A stretch of DNA of 64,000 bases from a bacterium HR40 (GTDB taxonomy: Bacteria; Pseudomonadota; Alphaproteobacteria; Geminicoccales; Geminicoccaceae): positions 124,001-188,000 of the forward strand of contig BEIQ01000004.1 in NCBI GenBank assembly GCA_002898275.1, written 5' to 3'. Both the position numbers and the translations under genes were made by a program. This document shows positions 7,355-23,971 of this stretch, piece by piece; position 1 is the first letter of the stretch, and the number at the start of each line of letters is the position of its first letter. A model generated the notes under the pieces. The model was not told the DNA's origin, made no database searches, and saw only the letters and a program-made list of their open reading frames with translations.

Positions 7355-9706
7355 TCAGAACTCCCGCGTCAGCTGGGCGAAGATGGTGTTGGACACGACG
7401 TCCTCCGGTCCGTCGCTCTGCCGGAGCGCAAGTTCGTAGCCGAGGCCGAAGCGCGTGTGGCGCGACAGGCGATGGCTTATGCCGAGCTCCAGCGCGAGCT
7501 CGTGAAGCCTGCCACCGCGATCGAAATCGATGCGCTGGGCCTCGAGCAGGAGCTGCGCCTCGGAGCGTTCGGAGAGGCGGCGGAGCCAGCCGGCTTCCGC
7601 GCCCAGACGCCGTTCGTCGGCCTCTGCCGGATCGTCGAACCGGCGCCCTTCGGCATAGACCGTGCCGCGCAAGAGATCCCGGCCGCGCGTCCGCTCCAGC
7701 ACGAGCTCGAGCAGACGTTGGTGGAAGGTGGCGGAGGTCCCGAGATCGAGGTCGAGCTCCGGCACCAACTCGCGGAACTGCGGATCGGCTGGCGGCCTTC
7801 CGGTGTTCCTGAGAGGGGCGAGGGGGTTCCGCGCCGCGATCCGCTCCCGCACGAGCGTCACCCGGTCGACGAGCCGTTCCCGATAGCTCGCCACGAAGCG
7901 GGTCGAAGGGCCGAGCGCCAGCGCCAGTTCCACCTCCATATCGGGCTCGCCGAAGAGACGCCCGTAGCTGCCGGAAAGCCGGATGCCATGCACCGTTTCC
8001 AAGCGAGCGCCGAGCCGGGCATAAGGGCCGCTCGCTTCGCCGCCGGCGAGCGTCTCGTCCTCGAGCTCCGACCAGCCGAGTCCGCCCGAAAGCACGAGTC
8101 CGTCCCGCGGCGCGACTTCGCCGTCGATGGCGACCAGTCGGCTTTGCACCACTCGCGCCGGTTCGTCCCGCGACCGACCGATATCGATGCGGTCGGCTCG
8201 CGCCCTCATCCCCCAGCCTGCCGTTCGCTCCTCCCGCGGCGCGGTTAGGACGAGCCCGACCCCTTGGCTCGTGGCGTCGGCGAGAGCGGGATCGTCGTAC
8301 CGCAAGGAGGCGAGACGGTAGCGCAACTCGAGAGCGAGTGCCTCGCCGAGGCGACCTCGCACAGAAGGGGAGAGCTCGGCGAAATACCGGGTCGTTCGCT
8401 CGTCGGCGAGGGCAAAGCTGGGAATGCGGGCATCGCCCGGCCGGTTCACCCCCTCTTCGCCGATCGACCCAGCCGCGTCGAGGAACAGGAGGTCACGGAC
8501 GAGCTCGATGCCGAGCCCGCCATCGAAGCGCTGACGCAGCTCCGACCCGCCCTCTCCGGTCAGGGTGTGGAGGGCAGCTGCCCCATAGTCGGCGGCGGCC
8601 TGGGCACGGCTCGAGCCGGCGGCGAGCTCCAGCCCGAAGCCGATGCTGCCGACGAGCGCCGGATCCTTGTCGCCTTCCGGTGCAAAGCGGACGTTGTCGG
8701 TGAAGGCGGTCGCGAGCTCGAGGCGGGGTGTGAGGTCGAGCCGGGCGACGGCGACGAGCGGGGGCACGGCGATGGCGGCAGCCAAGAGCAGGGTCAACGG
8801 AGACCAGCCGAAAAGACGGCTCGCGAGGCCCCCTCGGCGGACCGGCGGCGAGACATCGCGATGGTACTCGGTGCCGTAACGGGCATAGCCGGAATCGCCG
8901 CTGGCGCGGTTCAGGACCAGGGCGACCTCGACCCGCTGGCGCAAAAGGGCCACGGCCCGCTCCACTTCGCGCCGCGGGGTCACCCCGGCTTCGACCACGA
9001 ACAGCACCGTGCCCGTCCAGGCGAGCAGCGACAGCACTTCGCTGCTCGCGAGCACGGGCGGGGCATCGATCACGATCACGAGACCGGGATCGGCCTCGAG
9101 CATGCCGGCAAACAGGGCGCCGGTGCGCCGTTCGGCGAGCCGGTCGGGAAAGTCGGTCCCGCCACCTCCCGGCGGCAGACACGTGATGCCGATATCGGTG
9201 CGTCGGAGGGCCTCGGCGGGATCCACCGGTACGTCGGCGAGCAGCTCGGCGAGGCCTGGCGCCGAGGGCAGGCCGAGGAGGCGGGAGGCGCCGCAGCGCG
9301 CCGGGTCGGCGTCGAGCAGCATCACCCGGTGGTCGTGATCGGCGGCCAGCGCCAAGGCGAGCGCGAGGGCGGTGAACGTCTTGCCCTCGTGCGGCCGCGC
9401 ACTCGTGACCATGAGCACCCGATCGCGCCAGTCGCGAGCCTCGGCCAGCTTGGGGCGCAGGGCCGCGCGGAGGGCGCGCGCCTCCTCGGCGCAGGGGTTG
9501 CGCGTCCCGCCGGGCAACGGGATGCCCGCTGCCGCGAGGCGGAGACGGTCGATGGCGACGGGTGGCGGCAGGGAAGGGCCGCCGGCTGCGGCGGTTGGCC
9601 GGCTGGGCTCTTCGATCGTCCTCTCCCCCCGGGCGAGGCGGCGCGCCGCGCGGATCACGAGAGGGTCGCGCGGCCGCGATTGGCGGGCGAGGATGTGCGC
9701 GTTCAT
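7355..9706 (-). CDS. Fusion: XrtA tyrosine autokinase (TIGR03018-like) + outer-membrane barrel (TIGR03016-like)
   Basis: One open frame of 783 codons from ATG 9706 (ATGA overlap with the Wzz-like gene). Residues 1-282 are a BY-kinase: basic N-terminus, Walker A SARPHEGKT (102-110), Walker A' VMLLDAD (128-134), Walker B IVIDAPP (211-217) and a tyrosine cluster (Y274, Y277, Y281) where BY-kinases autophosphorylate. Residues 302-321 are a hydrophobic segment ending VAVA, which looks like a signal peptide with an AxA cleavage site. From about residue 323 the protein is beta-barrel-like (RLDLTPRLELATAFTDNV opening, alternating strands, terminal F) as in TIGR03016. The two parts are normally separate genes. 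I see no stop, and no ATG or GTG in the right place between them; only TTG codons inside the hydrophobic segment. Native fusion, self-cleaving polyprotein or assembly error remain possible. Confidence 0.85.
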   Translation of the reverse strand: MNAHILARQSRPRDPLVIRAARRLARGERTIEEPSRPTAAAGGPSLPPPVAIDRLRLAAAGIPLPGGTRNPCAEEARALRAALRPKLAEARDWRDRVLMVTSARPHEGKTFTALALALALAADHDHRVMLLDADPARCGASRLLGLPSAPGLAELLADVPVDPAEALRRTDIGITCLPPGGGGTDFPDRLAERRTGALFAGMLEADPGLVIVIDAPPVLASSEVLSLLAWTGTVLFVVEAGVTPRREVERAVALLRQRVEVALVLNRASGDSGYARYGTEYHRDVSPPVRRGGLASRLFGWSPLTLLLAAAIAVPPLVAVARLDLTPRLELATAFTDNVRFAPEGDKDPALVGSIGFGLELAAGSSRAQAAADYGAAALHTLTGEGGSELRQRFDGGLGIELVRDLLFLDAAGSIGEEGVNRPGDARIPSFALADERTTRYFAELSPSVRGRLGEALALELRYRLASLRYDDPALADATSQGVGLVLTAPREERTAGWGMRARADRIDIGRSRDEPARVVQSRLVAIDGEVAPRDGLVLSGGLGWSELEDETLAGGEASGPYARLGARLETVHGIRLSGSYGRLFGEPDMEVELALALGPSTRFVASYRERLVDRVTLVRERIAARNPLAPLRNTGRPPADPQFRELVPELDLDLGTSATFHQRLLELVLERTRGRDLLRGTVYAEGRRFDDPAEADERRLGAEAGWLRRLSERSEAQLLLEAQRIDFDRGGRLHELALELGISHRLSRHTRFGLGYELALRQSDGPEDVVSNTIFAQLTREF

Positions 9707-11950: not shown

Positions 11951-12430
11951 CATCGGCTCCATCGATAGAAATTCGGAACGCCGAAGGACAGCGCAGGGAG
12001 ACATAAGGTTTGCGACCTGCAGCCTTCTGCGCTGGGAAGTTGCCATGGCCCGCTGGTACTCTCAAGGGAGCGACATGGTTAACGGGCACGGTCGTGCATA
12101 TCATGATGAGACATTCGAACCATTGCTCGATCCCGCGGATCGACGTTGCAGCCGTCGGTCGCGTCGGAAGGCTTTACAGAACGGTGCCGTCCGCCTCGTC
12201 CGTCGCTCCCTGTGGCAACCGGGGCGAACCGGCGAGCGCTTCGTTCTCGGGACGTAGTCCGGTATTGCTACGCGCCGCCGTCTGCTTCAGTTTCCCGGCT
12301 CGACCGGATCCTGCCGTTCCAACGGGCCGTCGGTGGCAGGGAGACGGTCGCGGTGGAGCATGCCTCGTCGGGTGCGCCGGGGACGGGGCCGCGGACGCTG
12401 CCGCGGCGGCGTTCTGGACGGGCGGACGAA
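11951..12430. other. Divergent intergenic region, EPS operon / GGDEF-EAL gene
   Basis: About 480 bases between the Wza-like gene and the GGDEF/EAL gene, clearly lower in G+C than its surroundings around 12060-12130 (including the AT-rich palindromic stretch atatcatgatga near 12099-12110). A 70-codon frame (12045-12257) exists but its third-position composition is unlike real genes here. I could not find a good sigma-70 pair on either strand. The region should hold promoters for both transcripts, and part of it may be leader RNA of the exopolysaccharide operon. Confidence 0.4.
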
Positions 12431-13762
12431 ATGCGCAGGACTCACGACGATGTCGATCGCGAGCGCGTGTGGGCTCAGCTCTGTCGGGCCATAGAGGCGG
12501 CAGTCCGTCGCGACTCGAGGCTCGCCGTGGCGGTCCTCGACCTCGATCGTCTCAAGGAGGTCAACACGGTCTACGGGTACCGGGCGGGCGACCAGCTGCT
12601 CGCGGCCTTGGCAAGCCGGCTTGACGAGCATCTCGGGGGCAGTGACGGCTTCCGGATGAGCGGCGATCGCTTCGTCGTCTGGCTGCCGCTCGGCGAGCAG
12701 GACGTGCTGCCCTCGGTCACCCGCGTCATTCGCCGGTTCACCCGGCCGGTTCCCTATGCCGATTTGCGCCTGATCCCGCAGGTGAGTGTCGGCATCGCCG
12801 TCCATCCCGAGGATGGCCGCGATGCCGAGAACCTTTTGCGCCGGGCCGAGCTGGCTCTCGATCTCGCCAAGCGCCAGGGAGGCGGCCGCATCGTCCGCTT
12901 CGAGGCGGCGATGGAAACCACTCTCGCCCACCGCAAGTGGCTCGAGAGCGAGCTCGAGCGGGCGATCCGCCACGAGGAGTTCGAGCTCCACTTCCAGCCC
13001 CAGTTCGGCCTCGCCGATGGCCGCGTCGTCGGCGTTGAAGCCCTGCTGCGCTGGCCGCGCCGTCCCGGTGGTCCGTTGTCGCCCGCGGTGTTAGTGCCGA
13101 TCGCCGAGAGCTCCGGGCTCATTCGGGCGATCGGGGCCTGGATCGTGCGGCGGGCGGCGCGCACGGCTCGCCTGTGGCTCGATCACGGCTGTCCCACGCC
13201 GGTCTCCATCAACGTTTCGGTAGCCCAGCTGCGCCAGCAAGATGTGGCGCGCCTCGTGGCTCGCGAGCTCGAGCGTTTCGCCCTGCCAGCCGAGCTGCTC
13301 GAGGTCGAAGTGACGGAAAGCCTCTTCGTCGATCCCGCCCAGAGTGCGATTGCCGGCAACATCGAGCGCCTCGCTCGCCTCGGCGTCCGGTTGGCGATCG
13401 ACGATTTTGGCACCGGCTATTCCTCCCTCGCCTATCTCAAACGGCTTCCCGCGCAGCGCATCAAAGTCGATCGCACCTTCATCGACGGGGTGGCGCACGA
13501 TGCCACCGACGAGGCCCTCATGGGCACGATCGTCGGGCTCGGGCGGATGTTCGGCAAGCGCGTCCTGGCCGAAGGGGTGGAGACCGAAGAGCAGCATCGG
13601 GTGTTGCTGCGCGAGGGCTGTCACGAAGCGCAAGGCTATCTGCTCGCACGGCCGATGCCGGAGGCCGAGTGCACGGTCTTCCTGCGAAGCCGCGGCGGCG
13701 AGCGATCGCCCGCCGCTGTCGACCCGGGAAGCTTGCCGGACCGGTCTGCGGTCCTGGCTTGA
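12431..13762 (+). CDS. GGDEF/EAL protein, probable c-di-GMP phosphodiesterase
   Basis: 443 residues from ATG 12431; the frame is open from 12146 but upstream codons look non-coding. Residues about 25-170 are a GGDEF domain whose signature reads SGDRF instead of GGDEF, so cyclase activity is unlikely. Residues about 185-425 are an EAL domain with all landmark residues visible: VEALLRW, SINVS, EVTES, DDFGTGYSS, KVDRTFI, AEGVETEE and GYLLARPMP. It should hydrolyse c-di-GMP, with the degenerate GGDEF perhaps binding GTP as a regulator. No membrane or sensory domain is present. It is divergent from the exopolysaccharide operon, which suggests a local regulatory link but does not prove it. Confidence 0.85.
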   Translation: MRRTHDDVDRERVWAQLCRAIEAAVRRDSRLAVAVLDLDRLKEVNTVYGYRAGDQLLAALASRLDEHLGGSDGFRMSGDRFVVWLPLGEQDVLPSVTRVIRRFTRPVPYADLRLIPQVSVGIAVHPEDGRDAENLLRRAELALDLAKRQGGGRIVRFEAAMETTLAHRKWLESELERAIRHEEFELHFQPQFGLADGRVVGVEALLRWPRRPGGPLSPAVLVPIAESSGLIRAIGAWIVRRAARTARLWLDHGCPTPVSINVSVAQLRQQDVARLVARELERFALPAELLEVEVTESLFVDPAQSAIAGNIERLARLGVRLAIDDFGTGYSSLAYLKRLPAQRIKVDRTFIDGVAHDATDEALMGTIVGLGRMFGKRVLAEGVETEEQHRVLLREGCHEAQGYLLARPMPEAECTVFLRSRGGERSPAAVDPGSLPDRSAVLA

Positions 13763-13821: not shown

Positions 13822-15045
13822 ATGCGAAGGGTGTCCGGTGTGCAGGCTGCCGCCCATGCGTCGCATCCGACGCGCGACCGGCTGTATCCCCCTGTCCTCG
13901 ACAACGGCTTTCGACCGTTCTTCCTCGGGGCGGCCCTGTGGCTTCCGCTCTCCCTCGCGTTCTGGCTCGCCAGTCTCGACGGCCGGGTGGCGCTGGCATC
14001 CCATTTCGAACCGGCAGCTTGGCATCCGCACGAGGCCCTCTTCGGCGGTGTGGGCGGGATCGTCACCGGTTTCCTGCTCACCGCGGTTCCGAACTGGACC
14101 GGCAGCCTGCCAGTGCGGGGCCGGCCGCTCTTGCTGCTCTTTCTCCTGTGGGTCGCCGCCCGCCTCGGCAACTCGCTCCTCGGCGCCTTCGCTCCGCTGC
14201 CGGCGGCCCTTTTCGATAGCGGCTTCTTCGTCCTGCTGTCGCTGCTGGTCGGACGCGAGATCCTGCGCGGGCGGAACTGGCGCAACCTGCCGGTCGCGGT
14301 CCTCGTCGTCCTGTTGGCCACTGGAGATCTCTTGTCCCAGCTCGACGCCCTGGGGTGGGCGGCAACCGGTGCCACTGCGCGCCGTCTCGGGCTTGCCACG
14401 GTGCTCCTGCTGATCGCCCTCATCGGCGGCCGCATCCTGCCGAGCTTCACCCGCAACTGGCTCGCTTGCATGGGGATCGCGAGTCTGCCGGCACCGTTCG
14501 GTCGGCTCGACCGAGCGGTGCTTCTCGTCTGGGCCGCCACCCTCGCCCTCTGGGTCGCCGGCGCACCCGACTCCCTCTCAGGTCCCCTGTTCCTCGCCAG
14601 CGGCTTCCTCCACCTCGCCCGCATGGTCCGCTGGCAAGGCCACCGCACCTTCTCGGAACCGCTCGTGACCGTGCTCCACGCCGGCTACGCCTGGCTCGCC
14701 GTCGGAGCCTCGCTCTACGGCCTCGCCCTCGGCGGCATCGGCCTCGATCCGGCAACCGCCCTCCACGCCTTCACGACCGGGGCCATCGGCACCATGACCT
14801 TGGCCGTCATGACCCGCGCCTCCCTCGGCCACACCGGGCGACCGCTCGCTGCCGACGCCGCGACGGTCGCCATCTACCTGCTCGCCACCGCCGGTACGAT
14901 CCTGAGGTTGCTCGTCCCGCTTTTGCCCGTCGCACCCGTGGCGGGCCTTGCCGTGGCCGCGCTCGCCTGGGGTGGTGCGTATCTGTTGTTCGTCGTCCGC
15001 TACGCCCCGATCCTGATGCGGCCGCGAATCACGACGGGCGGGTGA
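13822..15045 (+). CDS. nnrS: NnrS family membrane protein
   Basis: 407 residues, nearly all in hydrophobic helices (about 12 transmembrane segments). The N-terminal LDNGFRPFFLGAALW, the HPHEALFGG block near residue 70 and ILPSFTRNW in mid-protein are the conserved NnrS motifs, with His and Arg positions thought to matter for haem or copper. NnrS proteins protect cells from NO-derived stress. An FNR/NnrR-like box lies just upstream, and a strong hairpin overlaps the stop codon. Confidence 0.92.
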   Translation: MRRVSGVQAAAHASHPTRDRLYPPVLDNGFRPFFLGAALWLPLSLAFWLASLDGRVALASHFEPAAWHPHEALFGGVGGIVTGFLLTAVPNWTGSLPVRGRPLLLLFLLWVAARLGNSLLGAFAPLPAALFDSGFFVLLSLLVGREILRGRNWRNLPVAVLVVLLATGDLLSQLDALGWAATGATARRLGLATVLLLIALIGGRILPSFTRNWLACMGIASLPAPFGRLDRAVLLVWAATLALWVAGAPDSLSGPLFLASGFLHLARMVRWQGHRTFSEPLVTVLHAGYAWLAVGASLYGLALGGIGLDPATALHAFTTGAIGTMTLAVMTRASLGHTGRPLAADAATVAIYLLATAGTILRLLVPLLPVAPVAGLAVAALAWGGAYLLFVVRYAPILMRPRITTGG

Positions 15046-23239: not shown

Positions 23240-23971
23240 ATGACCGAGCGGAAATCCGGAAGTCTCCGCGAGACCGTCCGGACCATCCTCTATGCCGTCC
23301 TCATTGCCCTGGCGATCCGCACGCTCGCCTTCGAGCCTTTCAACATTCCGTCGGGCTCGATGAAGCCGACGCTGCTCGTCGGCGACTATTTGTTCGTCTC
23401 CAAGTTCAGCTACGGCTACAGCCGCTATTCTCTCCCCTTCGATCTCGGCTGGTGGTCGGGCCGGATCTTCGAGCGGCTGCCGGAGCGGGGCGATGTCGTC
23501 GTCTTCAAGCTGCCGACCGACAATCGCACCGACTATATCAAGCGGGTGATCGGGCTTCCGGGCGATCGGGTGCAGGTGGTCAACGGCGTTCTGCAGCTCA
23601 ACGGCGAGCCGGTGCGGCTCGAGTCGGTGGGCGAGTTCGCCGACAGCGAGGACGGATTCCAGATGCGGGCGGCCATGTACCGCGAGTATCTGCCGGGCGG
23701 GCGTTCGCATCTCGTGCTCGACCTGACCCGCTACGGCCGGCTCGACGACACCCCTGTTTTCGAAGTGCCGCCGGGCCATCTTTTCGTGATGGGCGACAAT
23801 CGCGACAACTCCGTCGACAGCCGCGCCGATGTCGGCTTCGTGCCCGTGGAGAACTTGATCGGCCGTGCCGAAATCCTCTTCTTCTCGGTCAACGGCGAAG
23901 CCCGGTGGTGGGAGGTCTGGAAGTGGCCGTGGGCCATTCGCTGGGACCGTCTCTTCAAGCTCATCGAATAG
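23240..23971 (+). CDS. lepB: Signal peptidase I
   Basis: About 243 residues from ATG 23240 (MTERKSG); upstream ATGs at 23222 and 23159 are in frame but the protein family starts with the short basic stretch before the membrane anchor (TILYAVLIALAIRTLAF). Catalytic Ser is in PSGSMKPTL and catalytic Lys in YIKRVIGLPGD; the box GDNRDNSVDSR is the family signature. It cleaves Sec/Tat signal peptides on the periplasmic side of the inner membrane. It might also be the enzyme that would cut the internal AxA site of the kinase-barrel fusion. Confidence 0.95.
   Translation: MTERKSGSLRETVRTILYAVLIALAIRTLAFEPFNIPSGSMKPTLLVGDYLFVSKFSYGYSRYSLPFDLGWWSGRIFERLPERGDVVVFKLPTDNRTDYIKRVIGLPGDRVQVVNGVLQLNGEPVRLESVGEFADSEDGFQMRAAMYREYLPGGRSHLVLDLTRYGRLDDTPVFEVPPGHLFVMGDNRDNSVDSRADVGFVPVENLIGRAEILFFSVNGEARWWEVWKWPWAIRWDRLFKLIE

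Follow-up and report, generated by a model that had tools for sequence, protein, structure and literature searches.

In the 64,000-nucleotide stretch of DNA analysed here (the window), a single open reading frame encodes a predicted bacterial tyrosine kinase (BY-kinase) followed by a predicted outer-membrane barrel. This fusion is a genuine, conserved feature of the Geminicoccaceae: because the same stop-free frame is conserved across the family and was unseen in the genomes searched elsewhere, sequencing error is excluded. The parts are known, and the architecture is new. We think it probable that the gene product serves a Wzx/Wzy-type exopolysaccharide exporter as a polyprotein, which signal peptidase I would cut once to release the kinase and a mature barrel.

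One reading frame with two matching protein families

The fused gene runs from an ATG at 9706 to a TGA at 7357-7355 (Table 1). The original prediction, made from the letters of the window, had described 783 codons without a stop joining a kinase to a barrel. The frame is as it described, and the strand, which it had not given, is the minus strand; the plus strand of 7355-9706 is interrupted by a stop and only the minus strand is open. Long open frames are cheap at a G+C content as high as that found here. This one lies beyond chance, with both halves matching profile models in one frame and eight relatives keeping that frame through linkers of 44-62 residues.

The kinase signatures that had been predicted were all found by direct reading of the sequence. 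Besides the Walker A motif, the window protein has a Walker A' motif (LLDAD), a Walker B motif (VIVIDAPP) and a tyrosine cluster that extends to residue 281. Residues E107, G108, K109 and T110 of Walker A are invariant across all nine fusions, and each of the nine has at least two tyrosines at the position where the kinase ends. Walker A, A' and B, a tyrosine-rich C-terminus and the predicted fold together identify the first half as a predicted BY-kinase of the Wzc/CapB type. In an NCBIfam profile search the best-matching family was TIGR03018 (residues 68-266, E 1e-35), at 122.9 bits against a curated cut-off of 230.65; the kinase halves of the fused relatives score 119-181 bits against the same model. 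Because the score is below the curated cut-off, we take the window kinase, on its sequence, to be a diverged BY-kinase and not a strict TIGR03018 member.

Table 1. Features of the fused gene, its export cassette and the signal peptidase I gene in the window
Feature	Position	Strand	Basis
Fusion ORF: predicted tyrosine kinase, internal signal peptide and outer-membrane barrel	7355..9706	-	translation; NCBIfam; identical frame in 8 relatives
Predicted bacterial tyrosine-kinase (P-loop) domain, residues 50-268	8903..9559	-	TIGR03018 match; model pLDDT mostly >90
Walker A, SARPHEGKTF, residues 102-111	9374..9403	-	sequence
Tyrosine cluster Y274/Y277/Y281 at the kinase end	8864..8887	-	sequence
Predicted internal signal peptide with n-region RR..R, hydrophobic core, PP and final AVA (residues 289-321); cut predicted between 321 and 322	8744..8842	-	alignment with separate-barrel signal peptides; hydropathy
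Predicted 22-stranded outer-membrane barrel, residues 322-783	7358..8743	-	TIGR03016 over cut-off; 22-strand model
Wzz-type chain-length determinant, TIGR03007	9703..11277	-	417 bits, over cut-off
Short OPX lipoprotein, TIGR03027, Poly_export and SLBB, 252 aa	11288..12046	-	211 bits, over cut-off
ATPase, TIGR03015	6152..7348	-	317 bits, just below cut-off 324.5
Polysaccharide deacetylase, TIGR03006	5295..6167	-	326 bits, over cut-off
Glycosyltransferase, TIGR03087	2981..4435	-	394 bits, over cut-off
Signal peptidase I domain (LepB)	23276..23890	+	TIGR02227, E 2.4e-47

The junction resembles the signal peptides of separate barrels

Between the two halves lies the hydrophobic segment with an AxA-type end that had been predicted. 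In the window protein the basic residues R290, R291 and R297 lead into a hydrophobic stretch (298-321) that ends in A319-V-A321. This junction aligns with the signal peptides of barrels that are encoded by their own genes, which share the basic residues, the hydrophobic core and the small residues at -3 and -1, followed by a barrel start of the W-x-V-x-P-R-I-E type. With a slash at the predicted cleavage point, the window fusion reads LTLLLAAAIAVPPLVAVA/RLDLTPRLEL and another fusion, L071, reads GLALWVSLAAAPVALA/SWAVVPHIEF; the signal peptide and barrel start of a separate barrel, L072, read GAIALAVLSISGAQAA/EWKITPRIEA. All nine fusions have A or V at -3 and A or G at -1, basic residues precede the core, and the n, h and c regions of a signal peptidase I substrate are present; the cleavage motif is weak in L068 (VPG/A or PGA/R). 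In hydropathy (KD15) the 51 leaders of separate barrels have an interquartile range of 1.60-2.11 and a maximum of 2.55; the fusion junctions span 1.55-2.54 and mostly lie inside the leaders' range, where the window is near the top. The tails of separate kinases are non-hydrophobic in 71 of 71 cases (maximum 0.41), which argues that the barrel brought the hydrophobic segment with it. The segment is assigned as a signal peptide on the basis of homology, hydropathy and the motif at its end.

Cleavage of an internal signal peptide by LepB was one of two explanations first put forward for this segment, and it is now the best supported, since the junction shares homology with separate-barrel signal peptides and has no conserved start codon. 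In the mechanism that we propose, residues 1-284 would become a folded cytoplasmic BY-kinase whose partner is the neighboring Wzz. Residues 289-321, once emerged, would serve as an internal signal peptide in N-in, C-out orientation that directs what follows into the Sec pathway, and signal peptidase I would cut after A321. The barrel would then insert into the outer membrane, where it probably provides the exit pore in partnership with the short OPX, by analogy with the EpsX/EpsY proposal. After the cut the kinase would perhaps retain the signal peptide, which would anchor its C-terminus in the membrane, provided that no other protease removes it. We offer a broader version of this mechanism only tentatively: one precursor might feed two compartments, with the cut signal peptide as a permanent anchor for the tyrosine kinase, and kinase attachment, 1:1 pore synthesis and pore export might thereby be coupled, some relatives having later lost the pore and kept the anchored kinase.

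A variant of the polyprotein reading is that the cut is followed by trimming of the signal peptide, for example by site-2 or another membrane protease, which would leave a soluble kinase as in the separate-gene systems. The separate kinases of relatives, which are without a membrane segment, are in line with such trimming, but we consider it unlikely, as two Geminicoccaceae kinases at loci without a barrel retain a hydrophobic C-terminal tail that suggests a useful anchor. Both belong to Wzz-kinase-ATPase loci (L201, G002:C167; L200, G004:C69), and their kinases end in a basic-hydrophobic segment. Because they are diverged and without the tyrosine cluster, and the Walker A motif of L200 is altered, these tails are suggestive only. 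In one tree L200 and L201 join the fused clade at 89/93 support on long branches, and in another they are placed elsewhere. They may be tail-anchored pseudokinases.

Two proteins could also arise from one frame if translation restarted within the junction. The TTG codons at residues 304 and 308 to which the original prediction had drawn attention are present, and a restart at either would give a separate barrel precursor. Its statement that no ATG or GTG is available needs a small correction, since a GTG exists at residue 314; a start there, inside the core of the hydrophobic segment, would leave the protein without a signal peptide. A restart at TTG 304 or 308 is nevertheless improbable. The resulting leader would be 14-18 residues long and without a basic n-region, and a Shine-Dalgarno-like sequence is not evident upstream of either codon. 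Furthermore, the nine fusions compared have no start codon in common at the junction: ATG, GTG and TTG are all absent from the whole linker in L063 and L065, L067 and L069 have no start codon that leaves a usable leader, and a plausible GTG is found in L068 only.

The second half is a predicted outer-membrane barrel

Residues 322-783 match TIGR03016 over nearly the whole model (positions 3-477, E 2.8e-31) at 109 bits, above the cut-off of 90.85, which bears out the barrel-like second half of the original prediction. The cut-off is also exceeded by five of the seven other fusions tested, with L063 and L068 below it. A Pfam search of the window protein found no barrel family, and its relatives match BBP2_2 below the cut-off. 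AlphaFold2 was used to model the window protein (mean pLDDT 85) and the L067 fusion (89). In both models the kinase domain and a 22-stranded barrel are confident, and the linker between them is of low confidence. The structural matches of the modeled kinase domain are Wzc, Etk, CapAB, VpsO and BceF (Z 22-26), and the best matches for the predicted fold of the barrel half are outer-membrane receptors and porins (Z about 15-16). Foldseek with the full model returned kinases and TonB-dependent-receptor-like barrels; the 22 strands shared with TonB-dependent receptors are not taken as an indication of function. The Geminicoccaceae have in addition a second TIGR03016-like barrel, distantly related, unfused and about 420 aa long (G000:C1:126022-127098, with weak matches in most genomes of the family).

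The models also bear on the other explanation first put forward, in which the two parts stay linked across the envelope. Here an intact chain would hold its kinase in the cytoplasm and its barrel in the outer membrane, and the state of the kinase would be physically coupled to export. The single frame and the hydrophobic segment that separates the domains would both suit such a chain, and a hydrophobic segment 300 residues into a protein could also stay uncleaved as an anchor. The periplasm is about 20 nm wide, however, and roughly 60 extended residues are needed to cross it. In the window model barrel strand 1 begins at residue 322, right at the predicted cleavage point and 3-4 residues past the hydrophobic helix, and in the L067 model it begins at residue 273, after a gap of about 9 residues. 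With strand 1 predicted this close to the helix, no linker is left for the periplasm and an uncut chain could not span from the inner to the outer membrane, which makes a permanent tether very unlikely.

The fusion is conserved across the Geminicoccaceae

Protein searches of close genomes recovered the stop-free fusion in 9 of 31 Geminicoccaceae genomes (the window and eight others), spread over four genera at 35-43% identity, and all strong TIGR03016 loci within the family are fused. Records with the fusion include KatS3mg117 (a complete MAG), SKYG96, SKYB19, HRbin39 and HKST-UBA13/14. The fused relatives are mostly MAGs; the contig end falls inside the barrel in L069 (G027) and near the barrel end in L064 (G006). 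Several members of genus g6 are close kin, so that the nine fusions do not amount to nine independent observations. From the LN[KR]A motif of the kinase to the barrel, the linkers measure 44, 51, 52, 56 and 62 residues and are in frame throughout; the relative frames of separate kinase/barrel pairs are mixed (24/20/13). In every close pair, pN/pS across the junction codons stays below 1 (0.30-0.89), at a level similar to that of the barrel. The fused kinases group together in a single clade with an SH-aLRT support of 99 (a smaller tree gives 87/54), a topology consistent with one fusion event.

Among the best 80 loci from 84,980 species, the fused ones are Geminicoccaceae loci only, apart from L138. 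Kinase and barrel are neighboring genes in 57 of the other 71 of these loci, in agreement with the separate genes that the original prediction had given as known for XrtA/PEP-CTERM loci, and no barrel was detected in the remaining 14. Genomes sampled from the class (385) and from the phylum (398), a few of which are themselves Geminicoccaceae, yielded no fusion outside the family. A contig search gave no match with a single protein as the query and gave matches with an alignment as the query.

L138, from an Ectothiorhodospiraceae MAG, was rejected as a fusion: another frame has a normal YGYGYG tail and a stop, which identifies a frameshifted separate pair. The frameshift (L138:4880-5430) changes the kinase tail from YGYGYG to MAMGMVMAM and imitates a fusion, and could mislead automatic annotation. 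Also rejected were L199, L202, L203 and L204 as split kinase/barrel pairs within the Geminicoccaceae; the barrel profile finds no barrel at any of the four loci, and no barrel-like ORF is evident beside the kinase at L199 or L204. The latter two (G002:C29 and G004:C23) hold a second, XrtA-like kinase type that is separate and has a tyrosine tail; both genomes have an exosortase, which in G002 is on the same contig.

That an assembly or sequencing artefact joined two adjacent genes in the window, as a single lost stop could do where these genes are adjacent, as in other bacteria, and as L138 exemplifies, has a negligible chance of being true given fusions in eight other genomes, including the complete MAG, with diverged sequence and linkers of five lengths all in frame. 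The search for the same fusion in related genomes, proposed with the original prediction, thus excludes both outcomes named there as counting against it, a frameshift and separate genes in all close relatives.

The fusion lies in a polysaccharide-export cassette

On the minus strand the genes follow the order OPX, Wzz, fusion, TIGR03015 ATPase, TIGR03006 deacetylase and TIGR03087 glycosyltransferase. The Wzz gene overlaps the start of the fusion by 4 bases (ATGA), and the ATPase starts 6 bases downstream of the fusion stop codon. The OPX falls in the short class (up to 280 aa and encoded with a barrel), and no C-terminal helix is evident when it is read from its sequence. In relatives this order is kept around the fusion to the limits of their contigs. 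The single copy of signal peptidase I found in the genome is the LepB encoded in the window, which is presumed to process the fusion.

The XrtA/PEP-CTERM context originally suggested for the locus holds in part. The cassette is of that type, but the kinase is below the TIGR03018 cut-off and no exosortase (PF09721) was found in the window's genome, in a search that detects one each in the family members G002 and G004. Judged by its genes, the locus is an exopolysaccharide cassette of XrtA type without a sortase, and because no exosortase was detected we restrict the label "XrtA locus" to homology.

Two further genes adjoin the cassette. A GGDEF-EAL protein (c-di-GMP turnover; 12146-13759, plus strand) is divergent from the OPX end of the operon and is a possible regulator of the polysaccharide operon. 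An NnrS-family protein (nitric oxide/denitrification related) is encoded at 13822-15042, also on the plus strand.

Significance and comparison with known systems

If the proposed processing is true, this would be an uncommon case of a bacterial polyprotein that supplies both the cytoplasm and the outer membrane, and a signal peptide could function about 290 residues from the start of a chain, after a cytoplasmic enzyme that has folded. Through the fusion, the kinase and the putative exit pore of the same polysaccharide machinery become one unit, which strengthens the case for TIGR03016 as the pore of that machinery. With a linker of 44-62 residues, the polyprotein reading is directly testable. 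In the open full-text literature, which omits most subscription papers, we found no description of a kinase-barrel fusion and no paper naming TIGR03016.

The closest relatives by content are the adjacent TIGR03018 and TIGR03016 genes of XrtA/PEP-CTERM loci, which share homologous domains, the order of kinase then barrel, and the neighbors TIGR03007, TIGR03027, TIGR03015, TIGR03006 and TIGR03087. They differ in that here the two genes are one continuous frame, with a kinase below the TIGR03018 cut-off in a genome where no exosortase was found. In Myxococcus xanthus, EpsY and EpsX are proposed as a composite OPX/beta-barrel translocon, and there the barrel, EpsX, has 18 strands and a gene to itself (PMC9601211). 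The likeness lies in a short OPX (252 aa here, with a limit of 280 aa) whose gene accompanies those for an outer-membrane barrel and a Wzz-type co-polymerase (PMC9601211), whereas the window barrel is predicted to be 22-stranded and is fused to the kinase. The promonan cluster of Sphingomonas sp. LM7, whose polysaccharide is listed as depending on the genes for a barrel (prmC), OPX, ATPase and Wzz, resembles the window in cluster content, with a barrel, OPX, ATPase, Wzz and CapB-type kinase together (prmC/prmG; PMC11340318), but there the genes are separate.

The kinase half shares its predicted fold (Z 22-26), Walker motifs and tyrosine tail with Wzc/Etk and CapAB. In Wzc, however, the membrane segment comes before the kinase, whereas in the fusion it comes after the kinase and is part of the partner that would be exported. 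The nearest known logic is that of the fbcH cytochrome b/c1 polyprotein of Bradyrhizobium japonicum, in which one gene encodes a precursor that is cut after an internal signal sequence to give two proteins. Both products of fbcH stay in the bc1 complex of the inner membrane, while those proposed here would part for the cytoplasmic face and the outer membrane.
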